From the NCBI GenBank assembly GCA_902500785.1, contig CABVRW010000003.1, forward strand, positions 1 through 64,000: a stretch of 64,000 nt of DNA, read 5' to 3'. This DNA is from an uncultured Nitrospira sp. (GTDB lineage Bacteria; Nitrospirota; Nitrospiria; Nitrospirales; Nitrospiraceae). This document shows positions 27,130 to 41,473 of the stretch, piece by piece. Under the pieces are notes generated by a model. That model had not been told where the DNA came from. It made no database searches and saw nothing but the letters and a program-made list of their open reading frames with translations. The position numbers and the translations under genes were made by a program. How positions within the stretch are numbered: position 1 is the stretch's first letter; each line of letters begins with the position of its first letter.

Positions 27130-28938
27130 TCACACATCCAGCAGTTCGCGGATTTTTCCGGCCAAATCATGCTGTCGATAGGGCTGCTGCAAGAAGTATT
27201 TTTTATTGACCCGATGACTGGCGATCGTGTCGTCCGAGAACCCGGACACAAACAACGCCTTCATCTTGGGATGTTGGAGGACCAGGCGCTTGGCCAACTC
27301 CCGGCCGCTGATTTCCGGCATGGAGAGATGGCTGACGGTGAGGTGAATCGGCCCATGGTGCTGCTGGGCCACCAGCAAGGCCTCCACGGCAGACCCCGCC
27401 TCCAACACATGATAGCGATGGCAGTGGAGCGTCGAGAAGGCCAGCTTTCTGGCAATTTCATCCTCCTCGACCAACAGCACCGTCTCCGCCCCTTTGGACA
27501 GCGCTTCATTGAGCACCCTCGTATCCCTCACGATTCCATTCCGCTCAACTAAGGGGAAATAGACGCGCACTGTCGTCCCCTGTCCGGACTGGCTCTGGAC
27601 CTCAATCATTCCTCCGTGTTGGCGAACGATCCCATAGACCGACGTCAGCCCTAGCCCGGCATGGGTTTCCTTGGTGGAGAAGAACGGTTCGAACATCTGG
27701 GATTGGACGGTCAGGTTCATCCCACCGCCACTATCGCTCACGGCAATCCGGGCCATGCGCTTCCGGGGATTCTTTTCCAATTGTTCGGCGGGGAGCAATT
27801 CACCGGTGACGACCTCAAGTGCAATGTCCACACGACCGCCTTTCGGCATCGCATCCCGCGCATTGGCTACCAGATGCAAGAGCGCATACTCCAATCGATC
27901 ATGCCCGACTTCCACCAAGATCGGCACCGAATCACTCGGCACCCGCAAGTCGATCCGTCCGGGCAGGAGCCCTTCCAACGTCTCCCGCATTGATTCAATC
28001 GCCGGGCCGAGCGACAACGTGTCACGAATGGTGGTTTCATGAACCCGTAATGCCAGAAGTTGTGCCGTCAAGGTCGCGGCCCGCTCTCCGCTGCGGAAAA
28101 TCTCGTCGACCGGCCCCTGCAAGGCATCATTCGGCTTCAGTTTGGACACGATGACGCCGGTCTCTTTTCCAATGACCGATAACACCTCAGTGAATTCATG
28201 CGCCAATTTGGCAGCCAACCGGCCCACCGCTTCAAATTTCTGCGCTTCGCGCAGCTGTCGTTCCAACCCCGTCCGCTCCACCATGCCTTGACGGATCTCC
28301 TGATTCGCACGGGACAGGCCCTGCTTCAGTCCTTGCACGCGGGTTTCGAGTTGCGTCCGTCGTTCCTCCAGCACCTGCTCAGACTGTTTCAATCCTTGTA
28401 CGTTTTCACGCAACAGGCGATTGCGTCGGCGCTCAGTGGCGACCGTTTCAAGCGTGAGGCCGTAAAACACCGACATGATCAGCAAGACCGGTATACCCAG
28501 GAGATGACCCACCGCGAGGGTGCCCGACTGCATCGCATGTTCGTACACCAAGACGCCATATCCGGCGCAAATGACCACCGAAAGACCGAGCAGTTGCCGA
28601 AGCGAAGGGGCCGAAGAGGCAATCAAGAGCAGGAGAAAATAGGTGAGATACAGTTCGGAGCTGGCGTTCCCCGAAAGATAAATCGTCCCCGTCACCAACA
28701 GGGTATTGATGCTGATCAGCGCGCCGGGAAACCAGGCCCCCTCAAGTAGATTCCGTGGCAACAGCATGATCCCGCAACTGATCAGAATCAGGCCGGCGGC
28801 CACCATGAGACTCACCGCATGCCCGTAGATCGTCTCGTTACTGACCAACAACTCATAGGAGAGGATGCCGGCCACAAGACTTTGCAGAAAAATCGTGCGC
28901 GTACGAGAATGATTGAGCAGCCGCCCCAGTCCTCGCAT
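27130..28938 (-). CDS. Membrane hybrid histidine kinase with degenerate receiver domain
   Basis: A protein of 602 residues from the ATG at 28938; a GTG at 28992 is possible, and the frame is open to 29076. Five or six spans cover about 15-160, then a coiled coil (RTQLETRVQGLKQGL). The phosphoacceptor box AAKLAHEFTEVLSVIG keeps its histidine but replaces the usual HEFNN by HEFTE. The ATPase domain is complete (NARDAMPKGG, DSGGGM, LGLTSVYGIVRQHGG). The C-terminal receiver keeps the acidic patch (EEDE), but the phosphorylatable aspartate position is His (VSHLSMP) and the conserved lysine is Gln (QQPYR). It probably autophosphorylates and signals outward while the receiver is regulatory. Confidence 0.85.
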   Translation of the reverse strand: MRGLGRLLNHSRTRTIFLQSLVAGILSYELLVSNETIYGHAVSLMVAAGLILISCGIMLLPRNLLEGAWFPGALISINTLLVTGTIYLSGNASSELYLTYFLLLLIASSAPSLRQLLGLSVVICAGYGVLVYEHAMQSGTLAVGHLLGIPVLLIMSVFYGLTLETVATERRRNRLLRENVQGLKQSEQVLEERRTQLETRVQGLKQGLSRANQEIRQGMVERTGLERQLREAQKFEAVGRLAAKLAHEFTEVLSVIGKETGVIVSKLKPNDALQGPVDEIFRSGERAATLTAQLLALRVHETTIRDTLSLGPAIESMRETLEGLLPGRIDLRVPSDSVPILVEVGHDRLEYALLHLVANARDAMPKGGRVDIALEVVTGELLPAEQLEKNPRKRMARIAVSDSGGGMNLTVQSQMFEPFFSTKETHAGLGLTSVYGIVRQHGGMIEVQSQSGQGTTVRVYFPLVERNGIVRDTRVLNEALSKGAETVLLVEEDEIARKLAFSTLHCHRYHVLEAGSAVEALLVAQQHHGPIHLTVSHLSMPEISGRELAKRLVLQHPKMKALFVSGFSDDTIASHRVNKKYFLQQPYRQHDLAGKIRELLDV

Positions 28939-29425
28939 AGTTGGGTGCCGTCCGGTTTGGTCGAGTTCGGAAGAAGAAAGTGGAACGCTCACTACCGCGC
29001 CTGCCTTCAATAGGAACGTGTGAAACCAAGTGAGTGAGAAGTCAGCAAGTCCCGTACCTTGATCACGACGCGGCAAGTCGTGGCATTTTCAGGGACCGCG
29101 AAAAAACGAGGTGGCCTGGACGGCCAGAAGACTCACCTCGTATCACAAAAACGAACACCCGCCGGCGGGACAAGCGACGCCAACGGATGCGAATGAGCAC
29201 CACCGTAGACGTGCCTGACACAGGCCGAAGCGCTCGCTCAGTCTGCGCATTCATGACCATTCGCGGGGACCTCGCACGGCCTCCAGATGAGACTGGCTTG
29301 CGGAATTGCGTGGAAGAGAGGCCCTCTTGGGCAGGATGTTGACCGACCGAGCGACGAGCCGTCCGTCGGCATGCCGCAGCGCCGCATATTAGCTTGTCGC
29401 GGCGGCGAGGCCGGTATGGAGCGAT
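28939..29425. other. Intergenic region upstream of the hybrid kinase
   Basis: There are 487 bases without a supportable gene. A plus-strand frame of 102 codons at 29034-29342 is arginine-rich, lacks a ribosome-binding site and resembles no protein. The kinase promoter is expected here, but I cannot single it out. Confidence 0.4.
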
Positions 29426-31155: not shown

Positions 31156-31331
31156 ACGTAAGGCCACCTTTGGCTGAAGGAACGGATGATGCGGCGAACC
31201 TTAGCCCTTCTGCAGTCAACGGGTCAAGCCGCGCATCGGCGGAACCCGTCATTGAATTGACCAAGTCCCGCGCAATCCACTATGATACGATCAGTGTGCC
31301 TTCAAAGTTGACTGTGCCCTGGAGGGGACAC

Positions 31332-32768
31332 GTGCAGCGTATCCGTGAAGGGCTCAAGACCCGACTTCGCTCCCTCGTCACGCAGCGCACCGGCCTGGAT
31401 GAAATGGCCGTTGATGAGCTGGCGATATCCACCAGGCTGCGGTCTTGGGAAGCGGTTCAAATTCCTGAACGGCTTCGTTTCTCTTCTCGGCTGGCCCTTC
31501 TCTTGGTCGGCTTCTTCATTTTTATCGTGGCGTTCGTCCCCTGGACCCAAACCATCACGGTGACCGGTCAACTCTCCGCCTATTCCCCCTTCGACCGGCC
31601 GCAGGACATCGAGGCGCAGATCACCGGCCGTATCAAAAAGTGGCATATCTTCGAAGGCGTACGGGTGACCGCCGGCGACGTAATTCTCGAACTCGAAGAC
31701 TATGACCCGAGCTTCATGGCGCCGGATCTCTTGAACTTGCTGGAACAGCGCAAGAAAGCCCTCGAAGACACGAGAAAGGCCGCCTTGAGTCGCGCTGATC
31801 AGCTCGATAAGCGGATCACGGAGATGCAAAACCTCGTAAAGGCGGCGGTGCCATCGGCAAGCGCCCGCATCCTCGAAGCAGAGAGCAAGGTCCGTGAAGC
31901 CCGGCAGAAAATCGAAGCCGCCAAGATTGCGGTCGCCACCGCCGAACTCAATTTAGACCGGCACCAACAATTGGCTAAGCAAGGCCTTGTCTCACAACGC
32001 GAATTGGAACTCACCATCCAATCTGCGGTCGCCAGCAAAGCCGACCTGCGAGGGGCGCAGGCCAACCTCAGCGCAGCCGAACAGAGCATGAAGGCGTTGG
32101 GTTTCGGACGAGACCAAGTGAGCGCGGAAATGCTTCAACGCCTCCTCGACGCCGAAGCGGCGCGCGACGCGTCGATCGGAGAAGCGGCCCGCGCTGCCGA
32201 TCAAGTCGCGGACATGTCGCTGCGACTGTCCAATGCGACCCAACGCCGCGTGGCCAGCCGCATTATTTCACCGATCGACGGCACCGTGGTGAAAATGGCG
32301 CAGGCCGGCGCAGGAGAAACGGTACGGCCGGGTGACAAACTGGTCAAGATTTCTCCGGCCAGCACGGACCAGGCCATTGAAATGGTGGCCGACGGCATTG
32401 ACGCTCCGTTGCTCAATGTCGGACGGAAGGTGAAGATTCTGTTCTACGGTATCCCCGCCATCCCGTTACCGGCGTGGCCGGAATTGATGGCCGGCACCTA
32501 CAACGGGGTGATCAAGGTCATCGACCAAGTGGACGACGGAAAAGGCAATTTCCGCTTCTGGGTCGTCCCCGACCAGGAAGAGCGCCCCTGGCCGCCGCAA
32601 GAGCATGTCCGCCAGGGCACCAAAGCCATGGGATGGGTCATCCTCAATCGTGTCCCGCTCTGGTATGAGCTGTGGCGCCGCTTCAACCTGTTTCCGCCCG
32701 ACTACCAGGAACGACCCCCGAGTTTGATCGATACGCTCTTGCCGAAAGCCGGACGAGGGGCCAAGTAA
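31332..32768 (+). CDS. HlyD-family membrane fusion protein of a type I secretion-like cluster
   Basis: The preferred start is the GTG at 31332 (478 residues) because GGAGGGGACAC precedes it; the frame is open from a TTG at 31170, but that part has no ribosome-binding site. One membrane span at about 48-68 (SRLALLLVGFFIFIVAFVPW) is followed by a lipoyl half (DIEAQITGRIKKWHIFEGVR), a long coiled-coil hairpin (about 120-330, many Ala/Glu/Lys/Arg), the second half (RIISPIDGTVVKMAQAGAGE) and a beta-barrel. It spans the periplasm between the exporter and the TolC-type protein. First gene of the five-gene cluster 31332-38924. Confidence 0.88.
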   Translation: MQRIREGLKTRLRSLVTQRTGLDEMAVDELAISTRLRSWEAVQIPERLRFSSRLALLLVGFFIFIVAFVPWTQTITVTGQLSAYSPFDRPQDIEAQITGRIKKWHIFEGVRVTAGDVILELEDYDPSFMAPDLLNLLEQRKKALEDTRKAALSRADQLDKRITEMQNLVKAAVPSASARILEAESKVREARQKIEAAKIAVATAELNLDRHQQLAKQGLVSQRELELTIQSAVASKADLRGAQANLSAAEQSMKALGFGRDQVSAEMLQRLLDAEAARDASIGEAARAADQVADMSLRLSNATQRRVASRIISPIDGTVVKMAQAGAGETVRPGDKLVKISPASTDQAIEMVADGIDAPLLNVGRKVKILFYGIPAIPLPAWPELMAGTYNGVIKVIDQVDDGKGNFRFWVVPDQEERPWPPQEHVRQGTKAMGWVILNRVPLWYELWRRFNLFPPDYQERPPSLIDTLLPKAGRGAK

Positions 32769-32858
32769 CCAGGTCCACCTCCTCGGTCTTCCTGTCGGAG
32801 CGCACAGGCTCTTCGACGCTTATTTTCTCCCGTTTGGACTCAGAAAGGAGTGCGCCTC

Positions 32859-34349
32859 ATGAAGAACGCGATCCGGATAGTTGCCATCGCAGCCTGTGCG
32901 CTCTGTTGGCTGCCCGGACACAGTCGGGCGGCTGAAGACGCAGCCACATCACGCAGGTTGCCACCGATTCCTCTCTCGTTGAACGAAGTCCTCGCCTGGA
33001 TCGATCGGTCCCATCCGTTGTTGAAAGGAGCCGGCACCGAAAAAACCTCGGCACGAGGGAAAATGCTCAAGGCCCTGGGCGCCTTCGAGCCCACCCTGGT
33101 CAATGATACCGAGATCGAGCGATTTATCGAGAAGGGGACGACCAGAACGCAAAGCGTCGGCTTCAATGATACGTTGGTCGAGGCTCGTCATCCATGGGGA
33201 TTTCGCGGTAGTGCAGGGTTTCGCCAGGCCATCGGCGATGCAAGGATCCCTGACCTCTCCTTCGGCAACGGCAACCAGCAGGTGATTCTCGGCGGCTTCA
33301 TGCCCCTCCTCAAAGGGCTCATGGTCAATCCGGAAAATGCCGAACTCCAGCGGTCACAGTTGGCCGATCCGCGCGCCGACGTGAAGATCTCCCAAACCAG
33401 GCAGGACCTCTTTCTCGCCGCCGCCTCCCAATTTTGGGATTGGGTCTCTGCGGCAAAGTTCGTGGAGGTCCAACGCCGAGCCCTCGCCGTCGCGGAAGAA
33501 CGCTTGAGGCAGGTGGAGGGCAGAGCCAAAGCCGGAGCCGTGGCTCCGCTCGACGTGGTCGAAGCCGGCCAGGAGGTCCAGCGACGCCGCGAGGTTTCCA
33601 TCGGAGCGCAACGGGCCGTGGAGCAGGAGCAGTATAAGATGTCGATGTTCCTCTGGGAAAACCAGACGCCGACAGCACCGCAAGTGGAACGAGCGCCTGA
33701 TTTCCCGCCTCCGGCAGCCGTGCCGACGGCTGAGATCGTTCAAGCCGACAAGCTGCAAGCGAAAACCGACCGGCCCGAGATTCGAGAGGTCGATATCGAA
33801 GCCAAGGTCAACAACATCGACTTGGAATTGGCCAAGAACAACCTGCTGCCCAGTCTCGACCTCGAAGCGGCACCGGCGCGGGCTCCGGAAAAGTTCGTCC
33901 TCGGACTCGGTTACCGATTTGGGGTCGAACTGCGAATGCCGATCCTTCAAAGGAGAAGTCGGGGCGAAGTATTGGAAGCACAAGCTCAGGCGGATCGCCT
34001 GGTTATGGTTCAGAAGTATCGGGAGCAGCAAGTGGTCGTCGATGTCGACAATGCACTCTCGGCGATCGAACGAGCGAAGGAACGAGTGACCGCAGCGGCC
34101 GAATCTCTCCGCATGGCCAAGACACTTGAGGAAGGCGAGCGGTTCCGGTTCAGTCTGGGTGCCACGAGCGTCCTCTTTGTAAACCTGCGCGAACGCAATT
34201 CTGTCGATTCAGAAATGCAATTGGTGCGGGCGAAGGCGGATTATCAGAAGGCGTTGGCCCTCTATCAGTGGGCCACCGGGACCTGGGCGCGAAGCCAGCC
34301 GTCCGCCACGCCGGTCAACTACCGAATCGGCGCCGGCTTCTCCAAATAG
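32859..34349 (+). CDS. TolC-family outer-membrane efflux/secretion channel
   Basis: A protein of 496 residues from the ATG at 32859, with AAAGGAG eight bases upstream. The signal peptide is MKNAIRIVAIAACALCWLPG followed by HSRA. Two repeats of the outer-membrane efflux domain follow, each opening with a characteristic segment (PLSLNEVLAWIDRSHPLL and REVDIEAKVNNIDLELAKNN) and rich in long heptad-type helices (ERAKERVTAAAESLRMAKTL). It should form the trimeric outer-membrane exit duct for the neighbouring HlyD protein. Confidence 0.88.
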   Translation: MKNAIRIVAIAACALCWLPGHSRAAEDAATSRRLPPIPLSLNEVLAWIDRSHPLLKGAGTEKTSARGKMLKALGAFEPTLVNDTEIERFIEKGTTRTQSVGFNDTLVEARHPWGFRGSAGFRQAIGDARIPDLSFGNGNQQVILGGFMPLLKGLMVNPENAELQRSQLADPRADVKISQTRQDLFLAAASQFWDWVSAAKFVEVQRRALAVAEERLRQVEGRAKAGAVAPLDVVEAGQEVQRRREVSIGAQRAVEQEQYKMSMFLWENQTPTAPQVERAPDFPPPAAVPTAEIVQADKLQAKTDRPEIREVDIEAKVNNIDLELAKNNLLPSLDLEAAPARAPEKFVLGLGYRFGVELRMPILQRRSRGEVLEAQAQADRLVMVQKYREQQVVVDVDNALSAIERAKERVTAAAESLRMAKTLEEGERFRFSLGATSVLFVNLRERNSVDSEMQLVRAKADYQKALALYQWATGTWARSQPSATPVNYRIGAGFSK

Positions 34350-34481
34350 TGGTATTTCACAGTCTGCTCTGATAGGTTTTAACACGCGATATGGGCAGAC
34401 ACAGACAGGTCCGATCAACAATGAGACTGCCTTCGCAGAGGCGCGGCAAGGGGCTCGGTCAGGGTTAGCAGGGGTAGCACG

Positions 34482-36152
34482 ATGGCCCAAGACCATTCCG
34501 GCAACCAAGGGAGTCTGTTCCAAACGGTCGTCGGCCATCTCGGCCTCTTATTCCGTCTGGAACGGCGCGTCCTCGGCCTCATCTTCTCCTACTCGATCGC
34601 CATCGGGCTCTTCGCGCTGATCGTTCCGCTCACCGTTCAAGAACTCGTCAACACGTTCGCGTTCGCTCTCCAGCCCATCACCATCGTCACCTTGTCGGCG
34701 GTCATGGTGACGGCCTTGCTGTTCGTCGGGGCGTTTCGGGCATTGCAATATTACGCCGTCGAGGTATTGGAGCGCCGCATCTTTGCCCGCGTCGCCATTG
34801 CGATGGCGCAGCAGCTCCCACACTTGCGTTATCAGGGATTCAAGCCCCGCTACGCGAATTTCTTCGTCGAAACCATTCTCATGCAACGAGCGGTCTCCGT
34901 CTTGCTGGTGGATTTGATTAACGTCGTCGTCGGCGGGGCGGTCGGCATGACCATCTTGGTGTTCTATCACCCCTATTTCCTCCTGTATAACGCAATCCTG
35001 CTGGTCGGGTTCAACGTGGTCTTTTTCCTCATGAGTCATGGCGGCTTGAAGGCCGACATCAACCTTTCTCACGCCAAATACGATACGTTGCACTGGTTTC
35101 AGGAAATTGCGTACAACCTGCTCCATTTCAAGGCAACCGACAGCCAGGCACTCCTGGTCAAAAAAACAGATCAGCTCGTGGATGCCTATATCGGCGTGCG
35201 TCGGACCAGGTTCGGGGTGTTGATCCGTCAGTATGTGAGCTCACTCGGATGGCAGGCCATCGCGCATGGAGGCCTCATTGCCACCGCCGGGTGGCTGTTA
35301 GGCATCGGCCAGTTGACGCTCGGGCAATTTGTCGCCGCCGAGGTGGTGGTAAGCGGCATGCTCTTGAGTTTCGATGGGGTCGTCAAACGGATGGGGCATA
35401 TCTACTACTTCCTCACCGCGTTGACGGAACTGAACTTCTTATTCTCGCTCCCGAAGGACCAAGATACCGCGACCCTCTCCATTCCGCTCCCCGATCCGAC
35501 TGTCCATGGTATACGCGTCACCTGCAAAGATCTGACGTTTGCACCCGCCGATGGCCAGCCCGTTTTCGAACGGTTCAACCTGGAAGTCACCCCCGGCGAA
35601 AAAATCGGCATTTATGCGGACACGACGATGGCCAAGACCGTGCTGGCTCGGGTCCTGGGCGGGTTGGAGTCTCCCACATCCGGCGTGATCCGCTACAACG
35701 GCGTCGACCTCCGCCACCTCGACCTGGACTCCGTCAACCGGTTCAGAGGATTCATCCTGGATTCACAACTGTCGCTGTTCGAAGGCACACTCGAAGAGAA
35801 CATCGTGCTGGGACGGGACTACATTCCCTATAGCGACGTGCGCTGGGCGCTGCGCTTCACCGAACTCGAAGAAGAGGTTGATGCGCTGCCCCAAGGTCTG
35901 AAGACCCATGTCCGGTCCGCCGGGAAAATATTCGCCCCCACCCACATCGTGCGCATCCTGATCGCACGGGCGATTCTGGGCCGGCCGCAACTCCTCATTT
36001 TCGAAAGCATCCTCCAGCACAGCATGCACCCCGCCATTCGCGAGACCATTCTCCGGCGCCTATGCAGTAAGGAAGAACCCTGGTCGGTCATCTTTGTCTC
36101 GAACGATCCCAACCTGACCCCCCACGTCGACCGACGCATTATGCTGAACTAG
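34482..36152 (+). CDS. ABC exporter-type half-transporter with degenerate nucleotide-binding domain (first copy)
   Basis: A protein of 556 residues with the normal exporter layout: six membrane spans at about 20-300 and an NBD at about 335-556. The NBD fold is readable (VTCKDLTFAPADGQPVFERF, GVIRYNGVDLRHLDLDSVN, SLFEGTLEENIVLG), but the catalytic motifs are gone. Walker A reads YADTTMAKT (about 377) instead of GxxGxGKS/T. The LSGGQ signature is replaced by AGKIFAPTHIVRI. Walker B with its glutamate reads LLIFESIL instead of a D-E pair, and the H-loop reads VSNDP. ATP hydrolysis seems unlikely. The gene is full length without frameshift, so it appears selected for another role. Confidence 0.88.
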   Translation: MAQDHSGNQGSLFQTVVGHLGLLFRLERRVLGLIFSYSIAIGLFALIVPLTVQELVNTFAFALQPITIVTLSAVMVTALLFVGAFRALQYYAVEVLERRIFARVAIAMAQQLPHLRYQGFKPRYANFFVETILMQRAVSVLLVDLINVVVGGAVGMTILVFYHPYFLLYNAILLVGFNVVFFLMSHGGLKADINLSHAKYDTLHWFQEIAYNLLHFKATDSQALLVKKTDQLVDAYIGVRRTRFGVLIRQYVSSLGWQAIAHGGLIATAGWLLGIGQLTLGQFVAAEVVVSGMLLSFDGVVKRMGHIYYFLTALTELNFLFSLPKDQDTATLSIPLPDPTVHGIRVTCKDLTFAPADGQPVFERFNLEVTPGEKIGIYADTTMAKTVLARVLGGLESPTSGVIRYNGVDLRHLDLDSVNRFRGFILDSQLSLFEGTLEENIVLGRDYIPYSDVRWALRFTELEEEVDALPQGLKTHVRSAGKIFAPTHIVRILIARAILGRPQLLIFESILQHSMHPAIRETILRRLCSKEEPWSVIFVSNDPNLTPHVDRRIMLN

Positions 36153-36274
36153 CTGGATGCCGTATCCATTCACCCGCCTGTCCACACCCTGCTCCATGTC
36201 CCAGCCATTGCCCTCCCGCACCGGATCGCCCATCAAGCCAGACCAGGCATGCCGTGCGAGAGCGGACGACGCGG

Positions 36275-36296
36275 CCGGCCTTTCGGAAAAGGCCGG
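36275..36296 (+). terminator. Hairpin between the two degenerate ABC genes
   Basis: A perfect 9-bp stem (CCGGCCTTT, loop CGGA, AAAGGCCGG) lies in the 212-bp gap between the two ABC genes. It may terminate part of the transcripts or stabilise the upstream mRNA. Confidence 0.5.
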
Positions 36297-36364
36297 GTCA
36301 ACCTTGACAGGATTTCGGCAATCCCCCACACTGCCTCCCACAGCCGACCGCGACGAGCCACTGC

Positions 36365-38041
36365 GTGAATCAGAACGCTACCGACGCCACCCTTTCGACT
36401 CCCTCCGCATGGACCATCCTTGCTCGCCTGAATCTGTTGGTCGGGCTTGAGCGACGCGTCCTCACCATCATCGTCTCATATGCAGTCGTGATCGGCCTGT
36501 GTGCGTTGATCATCCCCCTCACCGTTCAGGAACTGGTCAATACCTTCGCATTCGCCATTCAACCGATCATGATCGTCACGCTGGCCGGGACGATGCTCGG
36601 CGCGCTGCTGCTGATGGGCGCATTCCTGGTCCTGCAGGCGCGTGCGGTGGAAATCCTGGTTCAGCGCCTCTATACACGCCTAGCCGTCGCGTTTACCGAA
36701 GCCCTGCCGCGCTTCCGAGAGAACGCGTTTCTTCCTCAACAGACCAACGCCTTCATCGAAGCGGAGCTGCTGCCGCGCGCCGTGGTTGCCATGCTCACGG
36801 ATGTGATCAACGTGACGGTGTCGGGCCTGATCGGCATGACGATCCTCATCATGTACCATCCCTACTTCCTCGGATATAACACCCTCCTGATCACGGGATT
36901 CGCCTTTCTCCTGACGTTTTTCGGCCGCGGAGGGATCCGCATCACCCGACAGGTGTCTCATCTGCATTACCAGACCTTTCACTGGCTGCAGGACATCGGC
37001 ATCAACCGGCTGCACTTCAAATCCACGGACAGCCTCCCGCTCCTGCTCAAGAAGACAGACGCGCTCGTTCAGGCCTATATCATGGCGCGCAAGCTCCGTT
37101 CAGATATCTTGAGCGGCGCGCAATATAAGAGCGCGGTCATTTTTCAGGCCGTCGCGCACAGCGGCATGATCAGCCTCGGTGGCTGGTTGCTGTCGGTCGG
37201 CGATATTACCCTCGGGCAGTTCGTCGCGGCGGAGGTGATTGCCGGAACCCTGCTGCTCAACCTCGACGTCGTGGCCCGGCGCATGTATGCCGCCATTTAC
37301 GTCGTGACCTCACTTCATGAACTATCCATACTGTTCGACATGCCGAAGGAGGATGTATCCGGCCCCGTGGCCGCCTGGCTTCCCGATCCCTGTCTGCAGG
37401 GGGTACACCTGACATGCAAGGATCTCGCATTCGCCGCGCCGGACGGACCGCTGCTCTTCGGCGGGTTCAACCTGGACGTTCTGCCGGGCGAGAAGGTCTG
37501 CGTCCTCTCGGGGACGAGCACAAGCAAGACCTCCCTCGCACTCGTATTGGCCGGACTGTACCATCCGACCGGCGGTGTGATCCGCTACAACGACGTCGAT
37601 CTGCGTGATGTGTCGCTGAATTACGTGAACCGCTGCCGAGGATTGATGCTGGATTCCCACCCCACCCTGTTCGATGGAACCCTGGAGGAAAACATCACGC
37701 TCCAGCGACCTTCGATTCAATTCGAGGCTCTGAGCTGGGCGCTGCGATTCGTGGACCTTGAAGAGGACATCGATGCCATGCCCCAAGGCCTGGAAACCCC
37801 TGTACATGGGAACGGCGCCAACTTAACCCGAAGCCAGGTGCTTCGCATTCTCCTTACCCGAATGATCGTCACCCGACCGGAATTACTGATCTTCAACGGC
37901 AGCCTTCACAATATTGAACCGGCGCTCCGATTGACCTTGCTGCGCCGGCTCTGCTCCAAGGAGGAACCCTGGTCGGTAGTGTTCGTCTCCAACGATCCGG
38001 AAGTCGGCCAACTGGTCGAGCGACGCGTAGTACTGGACTGA
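36365..38041 (+). CDS. ABC exporter-type half-transporter with degenerate nucleotide-binding domain (second copy)
   Basis: A protein of 558 residues starting at a GTG, paralogous to the gene before it over its whole length (both have LTVQELVNTFAFA, EEPWSV and FVSNDP). The membrane half is intact. The NBD again lacks catalysis: Walker A is LSGTSTSKTS (glycines lost, lysine kept), the signature region is GNGANLTRSQVLR, Walker B and glutamate read LLIFNGSL and the H-loop histidine is Asn. Together the two could form a heterodimer without a competent ATP site. The TLEENI and RYNDVDLRD framework is conserved, so the fold is retained. Confidence 0.88.
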   Translation: MNQNATDATLSTPSAWTILARLNLLVGLERRVLTIIVSYAVVIGLCALIIPLTVQELVNTFAFAIQPIMIVTLAGTMLGALLLMGAFLVLQARAVEILVQRLYTRLAVAFTEALPRFRENAFLPQQTNAFIEAELLPRAVVAMLTDVINVTVSGLIGMTILIMYHPYFLGYNTLLITGFAFLLTFFGRGGIRITRQVSHLHYQTFHWLQDIGINRLHFKSTDSLPLLLKKTDALVQAYIMARKLRSDILSGAQYKSAVIFQAVAHSGMISLGGWLLSVGDITLGQFVAAEVIAGTLLLNLDVVARRMYAAIYVVTSLHELSILFDMPKEDVSGPVAAWLPDPCLQGVHLTCKDLAFAAPDGPLLFGGFNLDVLPGEKVCVLSGTSTSKTSLALVLAGLYHPTGGVIRYNDVDLRDVSLNYVNRCRGLMLDSHPTLFDGTLEENITLQRPSIQFEALSWALRFVDLEEDIDAMPQGLETPVHGNGANLTRSQVLRILLTRMIVTRPELLIFNGSLHNIEPALRLTLLRRLCSKEEPWSVVFVSNDPEVGQLVERRVVLD

Positions 38042-38141
38042 CAACCTATTGCACGGCAAACGCGACTCGGCTTCTATCTATCCGTGCGATCTGCTAAACT
38101 CAGCGCTACGCTTCGCCTCCAGCCTGACGAAAGGTACGCTT

Positions 38142-38924
38142 GTGTCACTGGCATCACGCCTCAAACTGACCTTCCCCAATACCAATCAACTGATCATCAG
38201 CGTCCTGATCGCGGGGTTAGGGTGGGTCAGCGGCCAGGCCCTAAGCCGCATCGATCAAGACCTCCGCATCATGTATACGGAATACACCCTTGGCGCGGCG
38301 GACCTCGCCCATATTTCAGCGAACGTCATGCGGTACCGTAATACGATCATCCGGTCGTTGGAGGCCGAAAATCAGGCCACCTTCGAACGGATTACCGATT
38401 CCCTGCCCGCGCAGCGAGCGCGGATCCAACATGCCGTGGATCGTTATGCCGCGGCAGGTCTGCGAGTGTCACGCAGCGGCCGAAGCGAAGAAAAAGACAT
38501 TCAGGCGGTTCGCGAAAGCCTTGACCAGTACTTCCACGTGGCCAGCAAGACAATCGATTTGCTGACCCAGGAATGGAGGGCCGGTTCCGCAGCTAAAGCA
38601 ACGGAACTCCGGCGTAAGGCTGAGATTCATGCGGCCGACAACGGGGGGCCGAAAATCATGCAGGTGAGTCTCGCGCTGGACCGTCTACTGGAGACGGTTG
38701 CGGAAGTCGCCAAAGACATGCGCGACGAGGGGACGAAGACCATCCTGTCCACCAGTTATTGGATCGTCGGCGGGAGCTTCTTCATCGCTCTCCTGAACTT
38801 ATTTCTCAGCTGTGCTCCCCGGGCAAGGAAGCTACCGTCCTCCAGACCGGAAGAGACCAGTCGGCCCGGTTCGTCCCTGCACCTGCCGAGTGAGGGATCG
38901 AAACCCGCGTTTCGCACCGATTGA
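38142..38924 (+). CDS. Membrane four-helix-bundle sensor-like protein without output domain
   Basis: A protein of 260 residues from the GTG at 38142, with AAAGG eight bases upstream; the frame is open from 38049. An N-terminal span (NQLIISVLIAGLGWVSGQAL), a periplasmic helical region of about 160 residues (DLAHISANVMRYRNTIIRSL, then KDIQAVRESLDQYFHVASKT) and a second span (STSYWIVGGSFFIALLNLFL) match the 4HB_MCP ligand-binding layout. The cytoplasmic tail is only about 40 residues and has no methyl-accepting, kinase or HAMP domain. As the last gene of the HlyD/TolC/ABC cluster, it may be an accessory subunit. Confidence 0.7.
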   Translation: MSLASRLKLTFPNTNQLIISVLIAGLGWVSGQALSRIDQDLRIMYTEYTLGAADLAHISANVMRYRNTIIRSLEAENQATFERITDSLPAQRARIQHAVDRYAAAGLRVSRSGRSEEKDIQAVRESLDQYFHVASKTIDLLTQEWRAGSAAKATELRRKAEIHAADNGGPKIMQVSLALDRLLETVAEVAKDMRDEGTKTILSTSYWIVGGSFFIALLNLFLSCAPRARKLPSSRPEETSRPGSSLHLPSEGSKPAFRTD

Positions 38925-39779: not shown

Positions 39780-40712
39780 TCAGTGCACACGCCGTCCGGC
39801 ATGAATCCGGCCCAGCATGCGATAAATCAAGCGAGCGATGCTGAACTGTGGAGCGACGAACCCATCAATGGGCGCGATCTCGCTGATATCCATGCCCACG
39901 ATACCCGGCCCGTTTGCCAGCGCGGTCACGAGCGCGAGGGTGTCGTACCAGCCCAACCCGCCTGGTTCAGGTGTTCCCAACGCCGGCACAAGCGACGCAT
40001 CGAGCCCATCGCAATCGAAGGTGAGGTACACCGGCCCGGTACAGACGGCCAGGATGTCTGGAATCCAACGAGCCGCCCGCCCCTCATAGGGACCGGAGGG
40101 ATCGAGAATCGAGGCGGCAAAAAATGTATGGATTCGCGAGGTCTTCTGGATAAGGTCGATTTCTTCCGGGCTGATCGATCGGACGCCGACTTGTACCAGC
40201 GGCAGACCATCCTGCACCACGCGGGCCATCACACTCGCATGGCTGTAGGGATTGCCCTGATAGGCCTGGCGGAGATCGCCATGGGCATCGATCTGCACGA
40301 CACACATGGCCGGGTAATTCCGTGCATGCGCACGAATGGCGCCCAACGCACCGGTATGTTCGCCCGTCAGGGTGACGAGAAATTTTCCCATGCCGACATG
40401 CGGCAGGACGAAGTCCTGAATAGCCTGCACGGCCGGCCCGTCGACCAGACCATTCAGTTCCAACGTTGCCGCAGTCGCGACCCCTCCCCACTCCCGGTAG
40501 GGCTCATACCGCAGCGTCTCATCGTAGAGTTCGACCTGTTGGGAAGCTTCAATGATGGCGGAGGGGCCTCGATCGGAGCCGAGGATATAGCTCGACGTGT
40601 GTTCGTAGGGAGCCGGAAGGACATAGACTCCGGCCTGCTCAGGATGGCACCAGGGCTCGTCGATTCCGAGAAAATTGTCGGCTTGTCCAAGCCACCCGAA
40701 CGGGAGCGTCAT
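39780..40712 (-). CDS. speB: Agmatinase / ureohydrolase family protein
   Basis: Hydrolyses agmatine to putrescine and urea with a binuclear manganese site. The start chosen is the ATG at 40712 (310 residues), 11 bp after the arginine decarboxylase stop. Metal-site motifs are visible: LTGEHTGALGAIRAHA, VVQIDAHGDLRQAY (D-x-H-x-D), the SHASVMARV segment, and LTFDCDGLDASLVPALGTPEPGG. Paired with pyruvoyl arginine decarboxylase, this gives a complete route from arginine to putrescine. Confidence 0.92.
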   Translation of the reverse strand: MTLPFGWLGQADNFLGIDEPWCHPEQAGVYVLPAPYEHTSSYILGSDRGPSAIIEASQQVELYDETLRYEPYREWGGVATAATLELNGLVDGPAVQAIQDFVLPHVGMGKFLVTLTGEHTGALGAIRAHARNYPAMCVVQIDAHGDLRQAYQGNPYSHASVMARVVQDGLPLVQVGVRSISPEEIDLIQKTSRIHTFFAASILDPSGPYEGRAARWIPDILAVCTGPVYLTFDCDGLDASLVPALGTPEPGGLGWYDTLALVTALANGPGIVGMDISEIAPIDGFVAPQFSIARLIYRMLGRIHAGRRVH

Positions 40713-40723
40713 AGCTGCCGCCG

Positions 40724-41299
40724 TCAGGCCTGGTTCCGGAGACTTTTGGGAATGTTTTCGATGGGGATAAACACCGCCAAGGCGATCACGCAGGTCCATC
40801 GATTGGGACGGCCGACCGCGGATTGGGTGATATTCAACGTCCGCACGATCTTTCCGCCCATCTTGAACACCTGCTCGCGCTCTTTCCAGGCCACGTCCGG
40901 ATCGAACTCAATGCCTTGGGTGGTGGCCAGCATTTGCGCCGCGAGATCTTCGGTGTATTCGCCGGACTCCTCGTCCGTTTCGCCGTAGGCATGGTGTTCG
41001 GAAAGATAGCCGTAGGTGTCACGGTCGGTCGGAATCGCTAAACCGATCGACGCAGAAATCAGCCGGTTGCGTTCGTTGGTCTCCGACCTGGCCATCACAC
41101 AAAATGTGATTTCACCTGGATTCAGGAGTTTTTCGCCGCGCTTGCGCGGGAGAATTTTGCAATTGGGCGGGAGAATGGAAGAGACGCTGACAAGGTTGCA
41201 GTATGCCACGCCGGCGCTGCGCAAGGCCTGCTCGAACGCAGCCAGCTTTTCCTTGTGCACCCCGACGCCCCTCGTCAGAAACATGTGTGTTGGTACCAT
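40724..41299 (-). CDS. pdaD: Pyruvoyl-dependent arginine decarboxylase
   Basis: Converts arginine to agmatine using a pyruvoyl group made by self-cleavage. The protein has 191 residues from the ATG at 41299, behind GAGGGAG; an earlier ATG at 41317 is less well placed. The cleavage site is visible as [12 protein letters not shown], with scission expected between Ser40 and Ser41. Further family segments are [45 protein letters not shown] and [17 protein letters not shown]. Upstream of agmatinase in the same operon. Confidence 0.95.
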
Positions 41300-41473
41300 G
41301 TAGGTCTCCCTCTTCATCCCTCGTCGAAAACACTCCGCCTGAGCGTTCGAAGATTTGTCACAAACCTTGTGCCACGCATTTGATCATGCGGCGACACGCG
41401 CGGAAGTTGTATCAAGTTTGCGGGGCATCCGCAATATGGCGATCTGGTTTTTTTGTCGCGCAATCAGGTTCCG

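Follow-up and report, generated by a model that had tools for sequence, protein, structure and literature searches.

We analyzed a 64,000-nucleotide stretch of DNA from an uncultured Nitrospira sp. (contig CABVRW010000003.1, positions 1 to 64,000; hereafter the window), in which an export-like cluster of five genes encodes a HlyD-type adaptor, a TolC-family protein, two proteins with the fold of ATP-binding cassette (ABC) exporters, ABC1 and ABC2, and a 4HB membrane protein (Table 1). A preliminary description of this DNA had placed these genes together and had called both ABC proteins full length; both points were borne out, each gene lying at the expected position with the expected domain matches (HlyD_3, OEP/TolC, ABC_tran in both ABC proteins, and 4HB_MCP_1). 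As established by sequence comparison, the nucleotide-binding domains (NBDs) lack catalytic residues, are held under strong purifying selection and have been deleted in two independent lineages of relatives in which the transmembrane domain (TMD), HlyD and TolC are still encoded next to one another.

Table 1 Features of the export-like cluster in the window (aa, amino acids).
Feature	Position	Strand	Remark
Promoter-like site, weak, upstream of the HlyD GTG	31257..31286	+	Consensus match only
HlyD-type periplasmic adaptor, 478 aa	31332..32768	+	GTG start; 478 aa is the usual length among relatives
TolC-family outer membrane protein	32850..34349	+	Two OEP domains
ABC1, exporter-fold protein with degenerate NBD, 556 aa	34482..36152	+	
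ABC1 TMD, residues 15-325	34524..35456	+	
ABC1 H163, family-wide TMD residue	34968-34970	+	
ABC1 E287, family-wide TMD residue	35340-35342	+	
ABC1 degenerate Walker A, ADTTMAKT, residues 379-386	35616..35639	+	Canonical GxxGxGK[ST]
ABC1 degenerate signature, IFAPTHIVR, residues 483-491	35928..35954	+	LSGGQ replaced
ABC1 degenerate Walker B, LLIFESIL, residues 504-511	35991..36014	+	Canonical LLxDE; catalytic Glu absent
ABC1 degenerate H-loop, FVSNDP, residues 538-543	36093..36110	+	Canonical A-H-R; His absent
ABC2, second exporter-fold protein with degenerate NBD, 558 aa	36365..38041	+	
4HB_MCP_1 membrane protein	38049..38924	+	No chemoreceptor signalling domain

The open frame of the HlyD gene reaches back to 31170, upstream of the GTG at 31332, and the protein has a C-terminal signature, WYELWRRFNLFPP, common to its Bacteroidota counterparts. 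Promoter-like sites numbered 4 in the region, against 2.5 expected by chance.

Degenerate ATPase motifs of ABC1 and ABC2

ABC1 and ABC2, which are ~53% identical, were aligned to four ordinary ABC exporters from the same genome. At the Walker A, signature, Walker B and H-loop sites the ordinary exporters read GxxGxGK[ST], LS(G/V)G(Q/E), LLxDE and xxAHR, respectively; in ABC1 and in ABC2 (GTSTSKTS, NLTRSQ, LLIFNG and VSNDP), the P-loop glycines, LSGGQ, catalytic Glu and H-loop His are all gone. No consensus ATP site is left across the pair, both being without the Walker B Glu, the H-loop His and LSGGQ. The preliminary description, according to which all ATPase motifs had been lost, is thus accurate for these four sites and slightly too strong overall, as the P-loop Lys-Thr persists in both proteins; the alignment agrees with it that the degenerate sites differ between ABC1 and ABC2 and have VSNDP in common. 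The same degenerate motifs recur across congeneric genomes. Because this state is found in ~28 such genomes and the H-loop His in none of 73 members from two phyla (see below), the motif loss is, on this evidence, no chance event or sequencing fault.

Selection within the genus

The Nitrospira probe site Ntspa662 occurs in one congener (G001) and is missing from the fragmented genome that holds the window. The family is present in all 28 congeneric genomes searched, and the order HlyD-TolC-ABC1-ABC2-4HB is intact in most of the congeneric loci fetched, with ABC genes of full length in nearly all congeners. Ratios of nonsynonymous to synonymous substitution rates (dN/dS), computed pairwise within the genus by the Nei-Gojobori method, were as low in the NBDs as in the TMDs (ABC1, 0.039 and 0.044; ABC2, 0.078 and 0.076), with values of 0.041 for HlyD, 0.046 for TolC and 0.077 for 4HB. 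The claim that the erosion is old and maintained therefore passed the proposed check of a dN/dS below 1, at 0.04-0.08 in TMD and NBD. In the ABC1 NBD, constraint was weakest in the Walker A window (0.107) and strongest in the stretch from Walker B to the H-loop (0.012); as judged by these rates, the domain is kept under selection, yet not for its P-loop.

A fixed ABC heterodimer, as earlier envisaged, did not emerge as a feature of the system, since ABC2 is absent in two congeners and many relatives likewise carry a single ABC gene. The 4HB protein accompanies the cluster in close relatives only and lies outside the conserved core. Congeneric genomes additionally contain solo pseudo-ABC copies with no HlyD or TolC genes nearby (loci L042, L043, L054-L059 and L087-L092).

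Distribution and state of the NBD across phyla

The TMD-HlyD-TolC family was found in Nitrospirales, Bacteroidota and Sphingomonadales, and no description of it was found in the open-access literature. Within the order Nitrospirales it occurs in 139 of 197 genomes, and in the rest of the phylum none of the sampled genomes matched at E <= 1e-40. Among Bacteroidota, 76 of 296 sampled genomes matched at E <= 1e-60. A scan with the HlyD alignment returned at least 586 related loci, the best 80 all from Bacteroidota by title, and at most of these 80 ABC, HlyD and TolC genes follow in a row; two Sphingomonadales plasmids carry the same trio. Of the five-gene arrangement proposed to recur across phyla, then, the ABC-HlyD-TolC part does so, while 4HB is restricted to close relatives. 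The public record of one Sphingomonadales member without any intact motif names it an 'ABC transporter ATP-binding protein', an example of how automatic annotation can mislead.

In a first sample of 73 NBD-bearing members (29 Nitrospirales and 44 Bacteroidota), the H-loop His was absent throughout and a Glu stood at the catalytic position in four. The Bacteroidota members of this sample retained the Walker A Lys in 40 of 44 cases and the preceding Gly in all 44, while the signature, Walker B and H-loop were not intact; 29 further Bacteroidota members near a Flavobacterium locus (L163) look alike, with Walker A mostly kept. Among the Nitrospirales, Walker A is mostly lost, the P-loop Gly (residue 384) remaining in 8 of 29.

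A TetR-like regulator lies near the operon at 67 of 120 Bacteroidota loci, mostly directly upstream. Such regulators are usual beside efflux pump operons, and their presence here would point to efflux of small molecules. At a paralogous type of locus (L204, 6441-11199; also L205, L208, L209, L210, L212, L216 and L221), one pseudo-ABC gene and one HlyD gene accompany three tandem TolC-family genes, whose products may assemble into a hetero-trimeric duct in the outer membrane.

Relatives with intact catalytic residues

At the edge of the family, 13 distant Bacteroidota members have an intact Walker A, Walker B Asp-Glu and H-loop His, 'intact' denoting the presence of residues and not activity. 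Their signature reads LSTGQ, LPGG or similar, never LSGGQ, and the ABC-HlyD-TolC order is the same wherever neighbours could be read. The tree requires five changes between the intact state and the rest, two of them forced by starred branches. Given intact relatives in the same operon and these five changes, the loss of the ATPase is, from sequence, derived and was probably recurrent. Intact-motif homologues in the same context had been named in advance as the finding that would indicate simple decay. Such homologues do exist in distant Bacteroidota; simple decay does not follow from them, because the dead forms are under strong constraint. What they do leave unsupported is an envelope complex that was ATP-free by origin.

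Deletion of the NBD

In three Nitrospirota species the gene stops after the TMD (open frames of 339-348 aa). Among the Spirosoma family, a TMD-only open frame occurs in no fewer than 74 of the 179 genomes with a TMD-HlyD-TolC family member, a lower bound counted by hand from open-frame length. The 26 Bacteroidota NBD-less cases that were checked at the sequence level have HlyD and TolC directly downstream and no intervening NBD gene. The TMD tree, a quick search with long branches present, requires the NBD to have been lost twice, both times within groups of relatives that still carry it; NBD-less members include L110 and L060. An orphan family NBD was found in none of 10 NBD-less genomes. The other NBD matches in those genomes reach ~100 bits or less at 21-32% identity and are for this reason read as ordinary ABC proteins. 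In these two lineages the NBD is demonstrably dispensable, as judged by its deletion.

The region of coupling helix 2 is less conserved in NBD-less proteins (pairwise identity 0.38 versus 0.56 in NBD-bearing relatives), whereas the complete TMD shows no such relaxation (0.63 versus 0.61).

Downstream of the NBD-less gene, the loci of the three Nitrospirota species (L060, 5504-11731; L061; L183) carry inorganic carbon transport genes of the DabB-like (proton antiporter family) and DabA-like kinds. An adjoining RND (resistance-nodulation-division) pump, assumed from gene sizes, was ruled out when Pfam identified these DabB- and DabA-like proteins.

Transmembrane domain and predicted structures

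Across 104 members, H163, Q282 and E287 vary little or not at all, and as a set they are absent from the four ordinary exporters. E287 (transmembrane helix 6) and H163 were considered as a proton-coupling signature and rejected: E287 is present in 12 and H163 in 9 of the 13 relatives with intact catalytic residues, which makes the pair a family trait and no replacement for ATP. A Glu at TMD position 54 is private to Nitrospirales. No clear gained proton ladder was seen among the conserved TMD residues compared with intact relatives.

AlphaFold2 (AF2) monomer models were compared with the PDB. For an NBD-less Spirosoma protein, a whole six-helix exporter TMD was predicted with a predicted local distance difference test (pLDDT) score of 89.8; the model is nearest to HlyB/D and TmrAB (Z 27, root-mean-square deviation 2.6-2.8) and keeps cytoplasmic helix extensions and small coupling-helix elements. 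The ABC1 model has a well-folded NBD (pLDDT ~90) and is nearest to PCAT1, HlyB and PrtD. In these models the TMD has the type IV ABC exporter fold.

Elsewhere in the window, a minus-strand gene at 27130-29076 encodes a histidine kinase whose C-terminal receiver-like part, IHLTVSHLSMPEISG, is, by eye, apparently without a phospho-acceptor Asp. The gene at 39780-41317, also on the minus strand, is, by eye only, agmatinase-like and adjoins one that resembles a pyruvoyl arginine decarboxylase gene.

Proposed mechanism and alternatives

We propose, with a probability of roughly 60%, that the cluster encodes a type I secretion-like tripartite exporter that no longer hydrolyses ATP and is perhaps driven by the proton-motive force. 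The HlyD adaptor, the TolC outer-membrane duct and a membrane dimer of ABC-exporter fold would together span the envelope, and the complex would still export. The NBDs in the window may be structural remnants, possibly acting as a scaffold or regulator of the TMD. Alternating access of the TMD could be powered by an ion gradient, most likely of protons, as for SbmA (PMC13316013), and a small molecule or peptide might be passed to HlyD-TolC. ATP hydrolysis was probably lost on several occasions, each time from an ancestor with an ATPase in this operon; this suggests that, for this TMD, ATP was dispensable early on. An ATP-independent envelope complex, one of two possibilities raised in the preliminary description, is also the natural reading of two lineages in which the NBD is wholly deleted and the TMD, HlyD and TolC are kept together.

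Three observations weigh against the proposed mechanism. Most Bacteroidota members have an intact Walker A, which leaves a possible role for ATP binding in them; NBD-less proteins show no relaxation in the region of coupling helix 1; and the ionisable TMD residues E94, D144, H163, R240 and E287 are not a newly gained proton path, because they are common to catalytically intact relatives.

The membrane dimer could instead be a passive or gated platform that holds HlyD-TolC in place and provides a route across the envelope, flow being driven by the substrate's own gradient or by another machine. Such a platform, which we regard as possible and on balance doubtful, would account for repeated NBD loss without replacement energy residues in the TMD and for the strong conservation of HlyD and TolC; the retention of the full exporter TMD fold, cytoplasmic helix extensions included, argues against it, and keeping a conduit open through both membranes would be expensive for the cell. 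Binding of ATP without hydrolysis, with the NBD as a regulatory or gating domain, would fit the P-loop Lys-Thr of ABC1 and ABC2 and the Bacteroidota pattern of a kept Walker A Lys and preceding Gly beside motifs that are not intact. It seems unlikely in view of the few P-loop glycines left in Nitrospirales, of Walker A being the least constrained NBD stretch tested and of the existence of NBD-less relatives.

Energization in trans by an unlinked ATPase, either another ABC protein or a SecA-like one, would have a parallel in HlyD/OEP loci, reported from Nitrospirae and other phyla, that encode a SecA_DEAD protein but lack an ABC transporter (PMC4452313). This second possibility of the preliminary description found no positive evidence and appears quite unlikely: a scan of the five genes and of three that flank them gave no ATPase gene of either kind and no SecA match, the 10 NBD-less genomes held no orphan family NBD, and coupling helix 2 is relaxed where the NBD is missing. 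That the NBDs are divergent and still hydrolyse ATP through non-standard residues is highly improbable; the domain is predicted to fold well and the Walker B to H-loop stretch of ABC1 is the most constrained of those tested, but the catalytic Glu and H-loop His are replaced in both proteins and relatives do without the NBD. Pseudogene decay, for which intact-motif relatives in the same operon order and the missing ABC2 of two congeners might speak, is scarcely credible and already contradicted by the measured constraint, with nearly all congeners full length and TMD-only forms in at least 74 species.

ABC exporters are defined by ATP hydrolysis. The series of loss sampled here runs from intact catalytic residues through Walker A only and loss of all motifs to deletion of the NBD, with HlyD and TolC alongside throughout. 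If TMD-HlyD-TolC still transports, it would be an ABC-fold pump on another energy source, outside the ABC, RND and MFS (major facilitator superfamily) classes of tripartite pumps (PMC8277102). More tentatively, and at somewhat less than an even chance, the family may constitute a widespread class of tripartite exporters in which an ABC-exporter fold is driven by an ion gradient instead of ATP. Such a state would have arisen repeatedly, the NBD first dying and then being deleted, and each stage would still have its living intermediates. On the question of energy, the NBD-less operons of Spirosoma would allow a direct test in harmless bacteria.

Comparison with known systems

The cluster resembles type I secretion systems (HlyB-HlyD-TolC; PrtD, LssB/LapB, PCAT) in its HlyD adaptor, TolC duct, type IV exporter TMD fold and operon organisation. 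It differs in that the NBD is catalytically dead or absent, that curated NCBIfam cut-offs are far from reached (105-113 bits versus 693 for LssB) and that no linked substrate gene was identified here.

SbmA is an NBD-less transporter driven by the proton gradient, and the SbmA/BacA (SLiPT) proteins derive from a full ABC protein; SLiPTs are importers that lack coupling helices, and they possess a TM0 as well as a glutamate ladder (PMC13316013). As in SbmA/BacA, the ABC-exporter-type TMD of the NBD-less relatives does without an NBD. Unlike SbmA/BacA, the NBD-less model retains coupling-helix elements, HlyD-TolC is adjacent, and ABC1 and ABC2 retain an NBD (folded in the ABC1 model). Membership in SbmA/BacA was rejected, as there was no SbmA/BacA Pfam match; SbmA was also missing from the best 50 structure matches, which in itself proves nothing. 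As to a possible SbmA-style glutamate ladder, the sequence comparison showed conserved acidic TMD residues, which are common to intact relatives.

Heterodimeric exporters with one degenerate site (TM287/288, TmrAB, BmrCD and TAP) keep one working site (PMC7756269). Like these, the window has two related exporter subunits in which degenerate motifs are tolerated, but neither subunit retains a working site here, and there are relatives that have dropped the NBD altogether. The HlyD/SecA_DEAD loci, Nitrospirae ones among them, likewise have components of type I secretion and no functional ABC ATPase; they have a SecA-like ATPase and no ABC protein, whereas here the reverse is the case.

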